10,422 nucleotides of DNA. It comes from Burkholderiales bacterium (GTDB lineage Bacteria; Pseudomonadota; Gammaproteobacteria; Burkholderiales; Burkholderiaceae_D). Where the stretch lies: contig JAGWUK010000060.1 in assembly GCA_028868455.1 (NCBI GenBank), forward strand, positions 1-10,422, given 5' to 3'. A program made the position numbers and the translations under genes. The notes under the pieces were generated by a model, which ran no database searches, had not been told where the DNA came from, and saw only the letters and a list, made by a program, of their open reading frames with translations. Positions 41-5,060 of this stretch are shown one piece after another. How positions within the stretch are numbered: position 1 is the stretch's first letter; each line of letters starts with the position of its first letter.

Positions 41-553
41 CTAGGTTTCTGCATGATTGATCTTGTCCATTTCCTCTTGCAGTTCCTTAACGGCGATTTG
101 CATTTTTTGCATCATCGGTACCATCATTTTCTGCCTCATGACGAGGGAGTTATGGGTTAATACGGGCATTTTTTTGATGAAAGCCTGGCCAGCCGGTGAC
201 TTGTAAAAAGCGATAATGCCGTCGACTTCTTCCTGACTCAGGGACTGGCTATAAATGTCGACAAATTTAGGTTCCAGCACATCCCAATTGATTGTTTCTT
301 TCAGAATACTGTCCGTTTTTTTCAAAAACCGGTCGATCGCTTGTTCTCGCTCCTGTGTCTGAGGCGTGTTTTTGGTCGCTTCCTCAAACATTTTTTTTCT
401 TATCGGGACGAGTTGCGCATCGATATTTTTTAGCATCCCCTGCGTATTGGTCAGCACAAAAATTTCCTTAATCGACGCTTCGGTCGGTGCGGCGGCTTGC
501 GCTGGTTCTGCAAGCAAGGCAGCAGCGAAGAGAACTATCTGGCAGAGCTTCAT
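41..553 (-). CDS. DUF2059 family exported protein
   Basis: A 170-residue protein with an N-terminal signal peptide (hydrophobic residues 5-15, likely cleavage after AQA near residue 20). The conserved DUF2059 region is C-terminal: around residues 97-130 it shows the family signature of an acidic helix (SQEEVDGIIAFY) followed by KSPAGQAF and a KKMP turn. The tail (residues 140-165) is Met- and Lys-rich and probably helical. DUF2059 proteins are small periplasmic helical proteins of unknown biochemical role, so no function is assigned. ATG at 553 is taken because it begins a complete signal peptide, although no good Shine-Dalgarno precedes it. Its promoter must lie inside the origin-like region on its right, and it is transcribed away from that region. 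No terminator is visible before the window edge. Confidence 0.88.
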   Translation of the reverse strand: MKLCQIVLFAAALLAEPAQAAAPTEASIKEIFVLTNTQGMLKNIDAQLVPIRKKMFEEATKNTPQTQEREQAIDRFLKKTDSILKETINWDVLEPKFVDIYSQSLSQEEVDGIIAFYKSPAGQAFIKKMPVLTHNSLVMRQKMMVPMMQKMQIAVKELQEEMDKINHAET

Positions 554-637: not shown

Positions 638-680
638 TTTATATATAACAAGTTTACATATAAATAGTAGTAGTTGTTAA
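638..680 (-). other. AT-rich unwinding element with DnaA-trio repeats, module 1
   Basis: An AT-rich stretch with TATATA runs into TAGTAGTAG at 665-673 and then GTTAAC. On the minus strand the order is DnaA box TTATCCACA, a 21-nt spacer beginning GC-rich, then CTACTACTA, then AT-rich DNA. The opposite strand therefore reads 3'-GATGATGAT-5' away from the box. That is the arrangement and polarity of the DnaA-trio element of the basal unwinding system described for Bacillus subtilis and proposed to be widespread. The assignment is by pattern only. Confidence 0.62.
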
Positions 681-694
681 CGGCAGGCTCTGCT

Positions 695-703
695 TGTGGA
701 TAA
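695..703 (-). promoter_or_regulatory. DnaA box, perfect, module 1
   Basis: TGTGGATAA on the plus strand is TTATCCACA on the minus strand, an exact match to the strongest DnaA box. It is the box nearest the AT-rich/trio element and points toward it, so it is the expected anchor for DnaA loading. Confidence 0.85.
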
Positions 704-711
704 TTCGGTAA

Positions 712-720
712 ACATCCACA
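712..720 (+). promoter_or_regulatory. Degenerate DnaA box, module 1
   Basis: ACATCCACA has two mismatches to TTATCCACA. It is included because the exact counterpart 600 bp away (1312-1320) is a consensus box. Confidence 0.4.
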
Positions 721-721
721 G

Positions 722-734
722 AATCAATTGTTTA
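722..734 (+). promoter_or_regulatory. IHF site, module 1
   Basis: AATCAATTGTTTA matches every fixed position of the IHF consensus WATCAANNNNTTR. It lies just inside the first pair of DnaA boxes, much as IHF sits beside the first boxes of E. coli oriC. An equally perfect site occurs 600 bp away. Confidence 0.65.
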
Positions 735-765
735 TGAAATTCATAAACCGGTGCAAAGTTTATGT

Positions 766-774
766 ATATCCACA
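766..774 (+). promoter_or_regulatory. Near-perfect DnaA box, module 1 only
   Basis: ATATCCACA differs from TTATCCACA only at the first base. The matching position in module 2 has no box, so this is one of the few architectural differences between the copies. Confidence 0.55.
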
Positions 775-782
775 GGACAGTT

Positions 783-809
783 TTTGGATAGAAATAGCGT
801 TTTGGATAA
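783..809 (-). promoter_or_regulatory. Pair of weak DnaA-box-like sites, module 1
   Basis: TTTGGATAG (783-791, two mismatches) and TTTGGATAA (801-809, one mismatch) face the same way as the first box. Equivalent weak sites occur at 1383-1391 and 1401-1409 in module 2. Low-affinity sites between high-affinity ones are typical of origins, where they fill as DnaA-ATP rises. Confidence 0.45.
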
Positions 810-852
810 AGCAATGACTTGCGCACATAGTATGCAGTGGATATCGACTGAC

Positions 853-861
853 TTATCCACA
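853..861 (+). promoter_or_regulatory. DnaA box, perfect, right edge of module 1
   Basis: TTATCCACA is an exact box facing the first box, 158 bp from it. The same pair spacing recurs in module 2. Confidence 0.85.
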
Positions 862-870
862 AAAATATTT

Positions 871-1235
871 TCAAAAAAAACTAAAAACGCAGATTTACGA
901 CAACAAAATCGTCGTTTTTGATGTCACCTCGCTATTTTTTTTCCAAGGTCGTCAAAAGACCAGCAAAAAACGGGCGTTTTCAACATGTCTGCCGGCAGTA
1001 AGACAAATTGCCTGCCCATTTTTTGAAAAATGGGTCAACGCGTTTTATTGGAATGCAGAAAAGAGAATCAGGTGGGCAAGGTCGTGATTTTTTGTGCTGA
1101 CGGCGATGTGCACTTGCAAAACAGACCGTGTTTTTCTCGGTTTTGCTTGCGTATCGGTTTTCTGACTTGATTTGGTTTGCAATAGCGAAGTGCCGTTTTT
1201 CAGAGTGCGCTTTGCATCGCGATTCTGAATTGGGG
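871..1235. other. Spacer between origin modules, with palindromes
   Basis: This non-coding stretch of about 365 bp contains no recognisable DnaA box, although boxes crowd both flanks. It holds short palindromes: a 9-bp perfect inverted repeat with a 2-nt centre at 1015-1034 (CCCATTTTT/AAAAATGGG), AAAACG-GG-CGTTTT at 967-980, GGTC/GACC at 947-961, and a 9-bp direct repeat CAAGGTCGT at 944-952 and 1077-1085. T-runs are common. No promoter, RNA gene or ORF with a ribosome site is recognised. Confidence 0.5.
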
Positions 1236-1281
1236 TTTACTTAGTTAAATTAGTTTACATATATATAGTAGTGATTGTTAA
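1236..1281 (-). other. AT-rich unwinding element with DnaA-trio repeats, module 2
   Basis: An AT-rich stretch runs into TAGTAG at 1266-1271, followed by TGA and TTGTTAAC, then a 12-nt gap containing CGTCGCCG before the perfect DnaA box at 1295. Polarity and spacing match module 1 to within one base. Two clear trios remain, so this copy may unwind less readily than module 1. Confidence 0.55.
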
Positions 1282-1294
1282 CGTCGCCGTTTTT

Positions 1295-1303
1295 TGTGGA
1301 TAA
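1295..1303 (-). promoter_or_regulatory. DnaA box, perfect, module 2
   Basis: TGTGGATAA on the plus strand is TTATCCACA on the minus strand. It is exactly 600 bp from the equivalent box at 695-703 and likewise adjoins the AT-rich/trio element. Confidence 0.85.
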
Positions 1304-1311
1304 GTCCTGTT

Positions 1312-1320
1312 TTATTCACA
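1312..1320 (+). promoter_or_regulatory. DnaA box, module 2
   Basis: TTATTCACA fits the TTATNCACA consensus. It is spaced 17 bp (start to start) from the box at 1295 and faces it. Confidence 0.75.
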
Positions 1321-1321
1321 C

Positions 1322-1334
1322 AATCAAAGACTTA
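1322..1334 (+). promoter_or_regulatory. IHF site, module 2
   Basis: AATCAAAGACTTA matches all fixed positions of WATCAANNNNTTR. It shares AATCAA, the TT and the final A with the module 1 site, while the variable positions differ, suggesting selection on the IHF contacts. Confidence 0.65.
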
Positions 1335-1382
1335 AGTCATGGATATCTGGTCGGATAATGCCTGTATGAAAGGCGGACAGTT

Positions 1383-1409
1383 TTGGGATAAGTATTTGCT
1401 TGTGGAAAA
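1383..1409 (-). promoter_or_regulatory. Pair of weak DnaA-box-like sites, module 2
   Basis: TTGGGATAA (1383-1391, two mismatches) and TGTGGAAAA (1401-1409, one mismatch) lie 600 bp from the module 1 pair and have the same orientation. Confidence 0.45.
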
Positions 1410-1452
1410 GTAACGTGGTTTTGCACATTTCCTGCGCGAGATATGCAGGTGT

Positions 1453-1461
1453 TTATCCACA
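1453..1461 (+). promoter_or_regulatory. DnaA box, perfect, right edge of module 2
   Basis: TTATCCACA lies 158 bp from the first module 2 box, as in module 1. It sits 21 bp beyond the 3' end of the GNAT-like gene. Confidence 0.85.
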
Positions 1462-1481
1462 AGCAAATTGTGTCAGAAAGA

Positions 1482-2606
1482 TCAGAGCTGATCGGCGCGG
1501 CGCAATAATCCTGGTGCCAGATGCTGAAACAAGCCGCTGAAAACGCGGTTGCCCTGGCGACGTATTCCCGATAAATGCTGGTGATAGATCGCCGTGTATT
1601 CGAGGCTGGCACTGCCGCCGCGTGCGCGTTTGAACTGGCTGGCGCCCGAACTGTAATGCAGGCGCAATTGGCGTTCGCGGCTTTGTTGCAGCAGTAAAGC
1701 CATCAGGCGCCGGTACAGACCAAGAGCCGGTGGCAGGCTGGTGTCGTAACCGATCAGGGGCGTGGTGGCCCAGCCGCTGTCGGGGCAGGCGTATAAACCG
1801 AGAACACCGACCAGCCTGTTTTGCCAGCGTAAGGCAGTCAGTTCCAGAAAACCGGTTTCCAGGCACAGCTCAAAAAAAGCCGGGGTGAAATCCGGATTCA
1901 GATGCGAATGCTTGTCAATGAACAACTGACGAAACAATTGTCGCAAGGCTGGTAAATCCCTGGCTCGCAGCATGTCGGCACTGATGACCTCGACTTCTGC
2001 ATTGCTCAGCAGGCGCGCATCTTGTTTGACGTGATTATGTTTCCAGACTTTGGGCTGTTGCGGATCGCACAGGTAAATCATGCGCGCCGGCACGAGTTGC
2101 CAGCCCGCTTCGCGCAGTCCTTGTGCCAATTCAGGATGCACTTCCGGGCAAATATTACGCATCAGCAACGGGCGCATTGGAAATTCGTCCGCCAGTGTCG
2201 TTGTCATTTGCTGCAGTTCACTGGCTTGCCAGGCCGGATACAAGTTGGTCGAAATTAAATGATTACCGATGATGGCAGCCTGATGCAGATGACTCGCCTG
2301 CATCAGGCCGGCTAAGGGCGCATACAGACCCGCTGTAGCGACGTTGGCGAGCACCGAGAAAGGTGGCCGCAGGTGGCGCAGGACTTCGTCGCGGGCATAG
2401 CGCAGCCACGCAGATTGCGGGCATAGTACATAGCTGGCCGGCGTCGGACTGGCATCAGGCACAGTCACCGGGACGCTGTGTCCGGCGACGTCAATGGTTT
2501 CAATATGACATTCGGCGTTGGCTACCCAATGTTGTCCGCCTCGTGAGCGGGCAGCCAGTAGCCACAAAGCATCAGCCGGTTTGCGTGGCGGAATAAAGGT
2601 ACTCAA
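1482..2606 (-). CDS. GNAT-fold (BioF2/FemAB-like) acyltransferase, partner of BtaA-like enzyme
   Basis: A 374-residue protein that looks like a large acyl-CoA N-acyltransferase-fold protein of the Acetyltransf_6 (BioF2/FemAB-like) kind. The C-terminal half has the typical run of an aromatic/acidic helix (residues 240-255), a hydrophobic strand with LVGVLGLY, a helix with LGLYRRLMALLL and a strand with YSSGASQFKRARGG, close in style to that family. The N-terminal 150 residues are unrecognised. No signal peptide or TM segment is seen, so it is probably cytoplasmic. The only suitable start is a UUG (2604-2606) with GAG 8 nt upstream. It follows the btaA-like gene by 26 nt and is almost certainly co-transcribed. 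The substrate is unknown; the context suggests an amino group on a lipid head group or its precursor. No intrinsic terminator separates it from the origin region. The fold call is moderate and the substrate speculative. Confidence 0.72.
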   Translation of the reverse strand: MSTFIPPRKPADALWLLAARSRGGQHWVANAECHIETIDVAGHSVPVTVPDASPTPASYVLCPQSAWLRYARDEVLRHLRPPFSVLANVATAGLYAPLAGLMQASHLHQAAIIGNHLISTNLYPAWQASELQQMTTTLADEFPMRPLLMRNICPEVHPELAQGLREAGWQLVPARMIYLCDPQQPKVWKHNHVKQDARLLSNAEVEVISADMLRARDLPALRQLFRQLFIDKHSHLNPDFTPAFFELCLETGFLELTALRWQNRLVGVLGLYACPDSGWATTPLIGYDTSLPPALGLYRRLMALLLQQSRERQLRLHYSSGASQFKRARGGSASLEYTAIYHQHLSGIRRQGNRVFSGLFQHLAPGLLRRADQL

Positions 2607-2632: not shown

Positions 2633-3847
2633 TCAGTTTTTTTGATACAAGTGCATGCCGCCGTAAATGGCAGAACGGTCAGTCGCGTACAACGCACGAT
2701 TGCGTTCAACATCGGTATGCCAGTGATTCAGCAAGCTTGCAGGCAATTGGCGTTCCAGCATTGATTCACTGCCGCCGGTACGGAAAACAACTTTGGCGCC
2801 GGGTGCGGCTGTACGCGTGACTTCTTCCCAGAGCTCGCTCAGTTGTTGTTGATCCATCCAGTCCTGCGCGTCGAGGAACAGATAGGCATCCATCGACGCC
2901 CTTGGCTGTTGACGCAAAAAGTCGGTCAGCGTGGTGTGATGTGCATGCAGGCGATCGATGTTTTGGCGCAGCGTCGGAAAATGCTGCTGTTGCAGATACA
3001 TAGGTAAGGCAGCTTGCTTGTGGACATCGTAGCGACGGCCAAAAGCTTGTTGTGCAAAGCAGTTTTGATCCAGCGGGAAATCGCAGGCCAGATGGCGCAT
3101 TCTTTCTTTGAACAACAGGTGCAGGCCATCTTTGGCATCGTGCTGCAAAGCCTGGAACTGCGAAGGCGGAATTCCGAGGCTATACAGGGCCAGCGGCTGA
3201 CGGGCAATCAGGCGGAACAAGGCGGTATCGAATACCGGCGCCACATATTGCTCGAACAGGGAAGTTTGTTCATTCATCGTGCGTGCTTCCATCAGCTTGC
3301 TCATATCGCCACCCATCAGGCGGACGAAGAAATGCGCAAATCCTATGAAGCGGCCCAGCAAACCATGTTGATACGCTTGCTTGCTGAAATAATGAAAACG
3401 CGGTTTGCCGGATAACGTGCGGCTTTCCCAGAAATTGCTGGCATCCTCCGATAAATGTTGACGAATATGGCGTTGATAACGCTTCAGATTATCTGGCTGG
3501 CTGGCGTCACCGAGAAAAGCCAGCACTGACGCATAGTCGGGCAAATGGCGGATCGCCTGTTGCTTCATTTCCAGCATGGCCAGATGCGTGGCATTCAGAT
3601 CGACAGCATGCACGGCGGCAGGATTGGCAGACAGATAGGCGAGGGCATTACAGCCGCCGGAGGAAATGGTCAGGATATTGGCACCCGGACGTAATTGCAG
3701 CGCATCCAGATCCGACTGCGGATCTTCCCATATCTGGGCATACACCAGGCGGCTGAACCAGTGCGCAAACAAACGGTCGGCGAGGCCTTTGGTGCCTGAG
3801 GTGGTGGAATTGAATACGGCGCTGTCAATCAGAGTTTTGCTGCTCAT
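2633..3847 (-). CDS. btaA: BtaA-like SAM:diacylglycerol 3-amino-3-carboxypropyltransferase (DUF3419)
   Basis: DUF3419 proteins include BtaA, which moves the 3-amino-3-carboxypropyl group of S-adenosylmethionine onto diacylglycerol to give diacylglyceryl-homoserine, the first step of betaine lipid (DGTS) synthesis at the membrane. The signatures are present: YAQIWEDP (residues 36-43), the SAM-binding ISSGGCNALAYL (61-72), AVDLN (81-85) ending the next strand, and a C-terminal FRTGGSES stretch. At 404 residues it fits BtaA (about 400). ATG at 3847 is preferred to the upstream ATG at 3862, because GGAGA lies 5 nt before the former and nothing usable precedes the latter. It heads a two-gene operon with the GNAT-like gene. 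No btaB N-methyltransferase lies nearby, so the final lipid may not be DGTS. A PHO-box-like array lies upstream. Family assignment is strong, the exact reaction likely. Confidence 0.82.
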   Translation of the reverse strand: MSSKTLIDSAVFNSTTSGTKGLADRLFAHWFSRLVYAQIWEDPQSDLDALQLRPGANILTISSGGCNALAYLSANPAAVHAVDLNATHLAMLEMKQQAIRHLPDYASVLAFLGDASQPDNLKRYQRHIRQHLSEDASNFWESRTLSGKPRFHYFSKQAYQHGLLGRFIGFAHFFVRLMGGDMSKLMEARTMNEQTSLFEQYVAPVFDTALFRLIARQPLALYSLGIPPSQFQALQHDAKDGLHLLFKERMRHLACDFPLDQNCFAQQAFGRRYDVHKQAALPMYLQQQHFPTLRQNIDRLHAHHTTLTDFLRQQPRASMDAYLFLDAQDWMDQQQLSELWEEVTRTAAPGAKVVFRTGGSESMLERQLPASLLNHWHTDVERNRALYATDRSAIYGGMHLYQKN

Positions 3848-3880
3848 GGTTGTCTCCGGCATAAGTCGACTATAAAACAG

Positions 3881-4529: not shown

Positions 4530-5060
4530 CTATTTTTGCTCGGCAAGTTTTTTCAGGTTGTCGAGTCCAGCCTGAAAGTCGGGACCCACCATTTTATCCA
4601 TAAATGGTGCGAATAGCTTGGTCATCAGGCTGCCTTCGCTGCTGCCGTGCATATTCCAGGTGATTTTGGTGCCGTCATCGACGCCCTCCAGCATAAAGGC
4701 ACCGGTCGAGGGTTTGCCCATGCCTTCAAAATGCAGCTCGTATTCCAGCTGGCGATTGGTGATGGCATAAGTGAATTTCATGCCGCCATTGCCCTGACTC
4801 CGGCTTTGCCATTCCCAGGCGGCGCCGGTACCACTTTCGGGGCCGGAAAATTGCATATGCATTGCGGCATCGCGCTGATTCCAGACCGACCAGTTTTTCC
4901 ATTGTTTTGGTGCTGCGACCAGCGGATAGATTTTCTCTGGCGGAGCATGAATAACAAGGCTGCGGCTGACACTGTAGGCATTTGGCAGCGCGTAGGCGAT
5001 TCCCAGAATCAGGATGATCAAAACCAGCAGGAAGCCAAAAAACCATCGAATGAATTTCAT
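4530..5060 (-). CDS. Membrane-anchored SRPBCC (START/polyketide cyclase-like) protein
   Basis: A 176-residue protein with one N-terminal membrane helix (residues 5-25) followed by an SRPBCC domain. The domain begins with the typical strand SRSLVIHAPPEKIYPLV (33-49), then QWKNWSVWNQ (53-62), the family's entrance helix-turn, and ends with a long helix (about 150-174). SRPBCC domains are helix-grip folds with a deep hydrophobic ligand pocket, but the ligand cannot be told from sequence. The anchor places the domain in the periplasm or at the outer face of the inner membrane. Start choice is firm: AGGAG lies 6 nt before ATG at 5060. It is 65 bp downstream of glpK on the same strand, so an operon is possible but not shown. 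Confidence 0.82.
   Translation of the reverse strand: MKFIRWFFGFLLVLIILILGIAYALPNAYSVSRSLVIHAPPEKIYPLVAAPKQWKNWSVWNQRDAAMHMQFSGPESGTGAAWEWQSRSQGNGGMKFTYAITNRQLEYELHFEGMGKPSTGAFMLEGVDDGTKITWNMHGSSEGSLMTKLFAPFMDKMVGPDFQAGLDNLKKLAEQK

Follow-up and report, generated by a model that had tools for sequence, protein, structure and literature searches.

This locus raises two questions, namely whether a stretch of bacterial DNA without genes is the place where the chromosome begins its replication, and why such a stretch should carry the same core twice. The window, by which I mean the whole stretch of 10,422 bp that was analysed, belongs to a fragmented genome of 4.1 Mb in 879 contigs. Within this window the gap at 554-1481 is free of genes, and it carries two complete oriC cores as a direct repeat. 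It is bounded on the left by a gene for a DUF2059 protein (41-553, minus strand; open reading frame list and domain match) and on the right by a gene for a GNAT-type acetyltransferase (1482-2606, minus strand), which was assigned through a weak match to PF13480 and has a provisional start codon. Adjoining the latter gene beside the origin is a DUF3419 gene (2633-3862), whose product I take to be BtaA-like. Rfam and tRNA scans of the whole window gave no match. The host genus is Undibacterium; with blastn, the core DNA finds a match in 33 of the remaining 35 genomes that represent this genus, and in none of the 24 that represent other families. The NCBI taxonomy places Undibacterium in the Oxalobacteraceae, and the family used in the genome comparisons below (coded f1) may differ from it in its bounds.

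Each core runs in the same order from an AT-rich stretch with TAG trios and the motif GTTAAC over a spacer, GC-rich in core A, to an R1-type DnaA box, an IHF site, box-like sites and a closing R4-type box. Core A (655-861, plus strand, 129.5 bits) and core B (1256-1461, plus strand, 125.6 bits) are full matches to a core profile of 207 positions, and both are among the 47 sequences from which that profile was built. The DNA unwinding element (DUE) of core A lies at 633-682 on the plus strand, is AT-rich, and contains three trios (TAG TAG TAG, 665-673) and GTTAAC at 676-681; that of core B, equally AT-rich and on the plus strand, lies at 1236-1285, with two trios (TAG TAG, 1266-1271) and GTTAAC at 1277-1282. 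The perfect R1-type boxes at 695-703 and 1295-1303 are on the minus strand and read TGTGGATAA on the plus strand (in core A, TTATCCACA on the minus strand), while the perfect R4-type boxes that close the cores at 853-861 and 1453-1461 read TTATCCACA on the plus strand. The IHF sites, assigned with what I take to be the consensus, WATCAANNNNTTR, start 27 bp after the start of R1 in both cores, at 722-734 (AATCAATTGTTTA) and 1322-1334 (AATCAAAGACTTA), each on the plus strand. Between the IHF site and R4 follow GGACAG (at 775 and 1375) and the box-like sequences, which from their letters may function as weak DnaA sites: on the minus strand TTGGATA at 784-790 in core A, putative by resemblance, and TGGGATAA at 1384-1391 in core B, putative by resemblance and alignment; and on the plus strand the TTNNGCACA pair, consisting of TTGCGCACA at 819-827 in core A, again putative by resemblance, and the equally putative TTTTGCACA at 1419-1427 in core B.

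An earlier note on this DNA had described two modules of the same order in one gap, with 158 bp from box to box in both and an exact register of 600 bp. A blind repeat search agrees with the first point, returning direct repeats at 600-601 bp between the cores (651-682/1252-1283, 91%; 775-809/1375-1409, 71%; 691-703/1291-1303; 853-869/1453-1469), and the distance from the start of R1 to the start of R4 was measured at 158 bp in core A and core B alike. The exact register holds for one side of the cores, as the R1, IHF, GGACAG, TTNNGCACA and R4 sites are each offset by exactly 600 bp, and fails on the other, where GTTAAC at 676 and 1277 gives an offset of 601 bp, because the spacer between trios and R1 is 1 bp shorter in core B. 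Over aligned letters the two copies in the window share an identity of 0.66. The inter-core spacer (862-1255, no strand assigned), the right end of which is the AT-rich left flank of the DUE of core B, contains no open reading frame of at least 60 amino acids. It has inverted repeats at 883-919 and 1015-1034, of which the former has a T run at its end, and these hairpins are possible transcript ends, judging by their form; promoter-like sequences number 4 in the spacer (2.6 expected) and terminator-like ones 2 (0.9 expected).

Four perfect DnaA boxes lie in the gap, whereas 20,000 single-letter shuffles of its sequence contained 0.009 on average and never more than 2, so that the boxes are not there by chance; the whole genome contains 32 in 4.1 Mb, and the reversed control 16. 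In a nearest-neighbour scan of 50-bp stretches over the whole 10,422-bp window, for which general background values of the energies were used, the least stable stretch is the DUE of core B at 1236-1285 (-52.1 kcal/mol) and the second least stable the DUE of core A at 633-682 (-52.4 kcal/mol). The gap combines, as an oriC does, a cluster of DnaA boxes (four of them perfect) with a DUE (the two least stable 50-bp stretches).

Whether the gap is the origin can be judged from the GC skew, and the earlier note had named a skew minimum far from the cores as a finding that would speak against its reading. When the skew was cumulated base by base over chromosome stretches of complete relatives, the minimum lay 0.2-2.4 kb from the cores in three of them, belonging to two genera, in which dnaA is 150-363 kb away from the cores. 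In G005 the minimum is at 1,388,094 (1.12-1.60 Mb read), with the cores at 1,385,084-1,385,725 and dnaA at 1,233,457; in G014 it is at 2,688,636 (2.56-3.00 Mb, minus 2,970,000-2,979,999), with the cores at 2,686,621-2,688,286 and dnaA at 2,948,286; and in G374, which belongs to the other genus and has three cores, it is at 362,962 (280-440 kb), with the cores at 363,195-364,336 and dnaA at 13. A fourth genome, G448, in which the cores are inverted, gave no support, its minimum at 4,025,667 being separated from the cores by 32 kb and close to one end of the 80 kb read. Coarse skew samples along the chromosomes of G005 and G014 are consistent with a change of sign at the cores, with some mixed stretches towards dnaA, and in G026, where the sampling was coarse only, the skew is mixed between the cores and dnaA, which are 442 kb apart.

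A position beside dnaA is a common, not universal, trait of oriC which the Undibacterium cores do not share, as dnaA is on a separate contig in the genome of the window and about 81-442 kb from the cores in five complete congeners. The earlier note had held that another canonical origin beside dnaA would speak against the gap. Such an origin was considered and rejected, since the dnaA loci of six Undibacterium genomes (G000, that of the window, and G005, G014, G015, G016 and G026) contain no core match up to an E value of 0.05 within about 1.5 kb to either side (to the left in G026, 211 bases); in the window's genome, the dnaA locus contains a single perfect box, and TAGTAG is absent from both of its strands. 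The gap at 554-1481 is very probably the chromosomal replication origin (oriC) of this Undibacterium species. In all twin-core genomes in which dnaA was located the cores are apart from it, the smallest distance being about 7 kb (G213). As far as the accessible text of the Herbaspirillum seropedicae genome paper goes, the origin was tentatively set beside dnaA there (PMC3093359), and the search for the origin in this group of bacteria may need shifting away from dnaA.

This leaves the question of what two cores in one origin do. I consider it probable that the gap is both oriC and a twin-core origin, that is, two complete, separately maintained DnaA-dependent unwinding units within one initiation locus. 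In the picture established for E. coli, B. subtilis and H. pylori, part of which is found in the accessible text of two papers (PMC13220808, PMC8235120), a DnaA filament starts from the strong boxes, with IHF bending the DNA, and takes hold of the trios in the opened DUE. All of these elements are present in each core. In the gap, DnaA would sit on the inward-facing R1 and R4 of each core, which are 158 bp or about 15 helical turns apart, a bend made by IHF would lie between R1 and the middle sites, and DnaA-ATP would occupy the weak sites of the core; a filament starting from R1 would then cross the spacer, which is rich in GC, reach the TAG trios and open the AT-rich DUE next to them. Both cores would be able to melt, and in this one initiation locus either core, or both aided by a loop, would start the round, after which the passage of the fork would reset both. 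Two of the options in the earlier note, dual initiation sites and cooperative DnaA loading through a loop, would fit the sequence equally.

The comparison with relatives bears on this proposal. The 47 cores behind the core profile were selected by their perfect boxes at a distance of 156-158 bp. The invariance of the boxes in the alignment of these cores therefore exists by construction, and the counts of cores in genomes of the genus and the family, like the comparison of copies 1 and 2 below, all rely on this profile. Two or three cores are present in 32 of 36 Undibacterium genomes (own included), a single one in three and none in one; the absence from close relatives that the earlier note had named as speaking against its reading was thus not seen. 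More specifically, on 30 Undibacterium loci (own included) the profile finds two full cores in 28, three in G014 and one in G007, the locus of which is a 5-kb contig; six further genomes yield two cores in G009 (across two contigs), G016 and G017, one in G019 and G021, and none in G028, a genome that is 70% complete. All five complete Undibacterium genomes (G005, G014, G015, G016 and G026) have two or three cores. On one locus of G014 (G014:C1:2685928-2689007, at 536-2347) the three cores lie in tandem; in the middle one R4 differs by a single base (TTACCCACA), and the last one carries GTTAAAC instead of GTTAAC.

The 29 Undibacterium loci with two or three cores retain every class of site in both copies. 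R1 is perfect in 28 of the 29 first and all 29 second copies, GTTAAC is present in 29 and 28, respectively, and the 50 nt to the left of R1 have an AT content of 0.73 in copy 1 and 0.75 in copy 2. At the fixed offset of 27 bp from R1, the IHF consensus is perfect in 24 of the 47 aligned cores and has one mismatch in the other 23, and six control offsets in the same cores show 3-8 mismatches. The spacing from R1 to R4 is 158 bp in all 54 Undibacterium cores with perfect boxes, four of which have an extra box at 146, and it is 156-158 bp between perfect boxes in named relatives; in about 2 Mb of genome stretches, such box pairs were found solely at the two origins included, the underlying search registering every core once per strand. 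In contrast, the distance from core to core varies from 484 to 1103 bp (30 adjacent core pairs on the 29 loci), and I conclude that the conserved element is the core of 157/158 bp and that the 600-bp distance is incidental; as a constraint, the 600-bp register of the earlier note has to be given up, all the more so as the cores are inverted in 6 of 22 genera with more than one core. Helical phasing of the core-to-core distance was looked at and discounted, as the values of R (0.27, 0.22 and 0.43 at 10.4, 10.5 and 10.6 bp) have nominal p values of 0.17, 0.30 and 0.01 that come from related species and three periods.

These numbers also bear on a less probable, though conceivable, alternative, in which a single core works and the other is its helper, the DnaA of the second core looping over to stimulate melting at the first, in the way that oriC1 acts on oriC2 in the origins of Bacillus subtilis and Helicobacter pylori. 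Looping between two clusters of DnaA boxes is described for bipartite origins in the accessible parts of PMC13220808 and PMC8235120, and the copies do differ slightly: R4 is perfect in 28 of the 29 first copies and 24 of the 29 second ones, the remaining five second copies having one mismatch, so that R4 is imperfect in 5/29 compared to 1/29. The full IHF consensus, found in 13 of 29 first and 16 of 29 second copies, likewise favours one copy or the other depending on the subclade. However, a helper needs neither trios nor DUE, yet both are kept in both copies, and the variable distance together with the inverted orientation in other genera gives little reason to think of a tuned loop. The placing of the full IHF consensus (L005-L034), with a tendency towards copy 1 in one subclade of Undibacterium and towards copy 2 in another, hints at a possible division of labour between the cores. 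On a further, unlikely reading the origin would form two bubbles: a single initiation event would open the DUEs of both cores, each core would load the replicative helicase of one fork, and the chromosome would naturally start from two adjacent unwinding sites as one unit, with the number and orientation of cores free to evolve.

The cores and spacers can also be compared by identity and in a tree. In six pairs of distant congeners the identity of the spacers is 0.66-0.68 over aligned letters, one pair reaching 0.75 with 357 gap letters, and shuffled spacers give 0.60-0.66 (three shuffles of one pair); the cores of the distant pairs have 0.72-0.83, a comparison made unshuffled. In nine pairs of close congeners the spacers have 0.74-0.96 and the cores 0.91-1.00, and in three of these nine the spacer is as similar as the cores (0.95-0.96). 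In a quick tree of the cores, which has SH-aLRT support alone and weak deep forks (34), the copy-1 rows of one Undibacterium subclade group together (16 rows, SH-aLRT 95), and so do its copy-2 rows (12 rows, 97). Copies 1 and 2 of Collimonas cluster with each other (12 rows, SH-aLRT 100), which may be due to gene conversion or a separate duplication. As far as can be read from the sequences, both copies are separately maintained, with boxes, trios and DUE conserved about equally over the long term.

The family as a whole shows how widespread the second core is. Of 46 named loci found by the trio pattern, some of which are cut at the edge, 36 have two cores with perfect boxes, nine have one, and one, a Bacteroidetes contig, has none; Undibacterium, Herbaspirillum, Collimonas, Glaciimonas and Oxalicibacterium are among the names with two. 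The profile matches in 134 of 145 family genomes. With one genome taken per genus, two or three cores occur in 22 of 40 genera (three cores in four of these), a single core in 15 and none in three, a survey that omits four further genera with less complete genomes. In all 22 genera with more than one core the cores are no more than 3 kb apart, and some genera have gene-length open reading frames between them; the cores are direct in 16 and inverted in six, with the DUEs on the inside in G334, G345, G347, G358 and G365 and on the outside in G448. Since 15 genera have one core and three have none, the second core is dispensable in evolution.

This dispensability leads to another rather unlikely reading, namely that the duplication is old, that either core is enough, with selection preserving no fewer than one at any time, and that the second has no role of its own, being slowly lost and occasionally restored to likeness by gene conversion. 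Single strong cores (about 100 bits or more) in four other genera (G346, G353, G354 and G382), where fragmented assemblies may hide a second core, would fit such neutral redundancy, as would the clustering of the Collimonas copies, if conversion caused it. Against it stand the presence of at least two cores in 32 of 36 Undibacterium genomes and 22 of 40 genera, and the lineages of copy 1 and copy 2, which have diverged and retained every class of site, whereas neutral copies should decay like the spacer between distant congeners. The earlier note had raised a titration or regulatory copy. A second module that titrates DnaA or switches its nucleotide beside a single origin, like datA or DARS, is very improbable. 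It is true that datA acts with IHF on DnaA (PMC13220808, accessible text) and that each module combines DnaA boxes with an IHF site, but boxes, trios and DUE are preserved to about the same degree in the two copies, and a titration site would gain nothing from trios in DNA that melts more easily than any other in the window.

Among the known origins, that of Escherichia coli is closest to a single core, as DUE, R1, IHF site, weak sites and an inward-facing R4 follow one another in the same order in each core; the distance from R1 to R4 is about 180 bp in E. coli and 158 bp in the Undibacterium cores. The latter differ further in being two or three instead of one, and in having clear TAG trios. 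A datA-like site is laid out as boxes and an IHF site without a DUE, and the modules of the window have boxes and an IHF site but also a DUE. DUE, R1, IHF, low-affinity sites and R4 are the elements given for E. coli oriC in the accessible part of PMC13220808. The GATC sites and SeqA control of E. coli have no counterpart in the twin-core origin: GATC is absent from 339 to 1479 and hence from both cores, and SeqA was found in none of 10 family genomes tested, with a positive E. coli control, which together argue against an E. coli-style sequestration of the fired origin.

The bipartite origins of B. subtilis and H. pylori resemble the gap in having two clusters of DnaA boxes within about 2 kb in one locus. 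In such origins, according to the accessible text of PMC4285127, only one subregion contains the DUE, and the two are separated by a spacer gene, in most cases dnaA. In the window both halves have a DUE and trios, there is no intervening gene, and dnaA is elsewhere; since both halves carry a DUE, this is, by its sequence, not a classical bipartite origin. The likeness to the basal unwinding system (BUS) consists of an R1 box, a spacer and trios that read 5'-CTA-3' away from the box, with the polarity given for H. pylori in the accessible part of PMC8235120, the difference being that the unit of DnaA box, spacer and trios is present twice in one origin, and three times in some genera. By analogy, the twin-core origin would work like a core of the E. 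coli or BUS type that is present twice.

Double origins have been proposed before. As far as the accessible text of Gao 2015 on DoriC (PMC4403523) extends, they include those of Acidaminococcus fermentans, Ralstonia pickettii 12D and others, and the likeness is that more than one origin-like region is proposed per chromosome; the four in its table, however, are dnaA-linked bipartite pairs or distant regions, and none of the four consists of tandem complete cores. Among the matches listed from the open-licence literature, as far as their accessible text goes, no tandem oriC core in the family of Undibacterium was found. Two complete start modules side by side, kept in most relatives examined, were met in none of the papers searched. 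Bacterial chromosomes are regarded as having one origin. In divided origins the unwinding element is in one half only, as stated in the accessible part of PMC4285127. The genera with two or three complete cores offer natural strains for studying whether one chromosome can be fired from two cores, by what means re-initiation is prevented when SeqA is missing, and which purpose a second cluster of DnaA boxes serves.

As to the history of this arrangement, G356, G362 and G369 each have one core, of lower score, that begins 54-64 bp behind the DnaA match, and in two loci from other families (L246 and L249) a single core match lies directly behind dnaA and ahead of a putative dnaN, which I recognised by eye and take to be that gene. 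Such single cores behind dnaA suggest that this position is ancestral and that relocation and duplication are derived. I infer that a single core behind dnaA likely moved away from dnaA and was then duplicated. In a sample of 200 genomes, 98 of those outside the family match the core profile at E values up to 0.01, with lower scores of at most 71 bits; 72 have a single match and 26 have more than one, in several cases through overlapping matches on the other strand. In L274, L275, L276, L277 and L278 (families f27, f49 and f51) a weak second match is located about 250-440 bp from the first; judging from such matches, doubled cores may reach beyond the family of Undibacterium in a degenerate form. 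In a large genome of family f31 (L273, G154:C2:84000-91000), core matches of 51-53 bits at 1666-1883 and 4831-5059 are 3 kb apart and inverted, with open reading frames between them. According to the accessible text of a paper on Burkholderia cenocepacia, the features of the main origin are dispersed there and its precise position is uncertain, and the split pair may be related to such a dispersed origin. Finally, a genome of 1.2 Mb has, on a single contig, two very similar core matches at a distance of 17 kb (G229:C2:41575-41779 and 58853-59057), a candidate for either a duplication or an assembly artefact.
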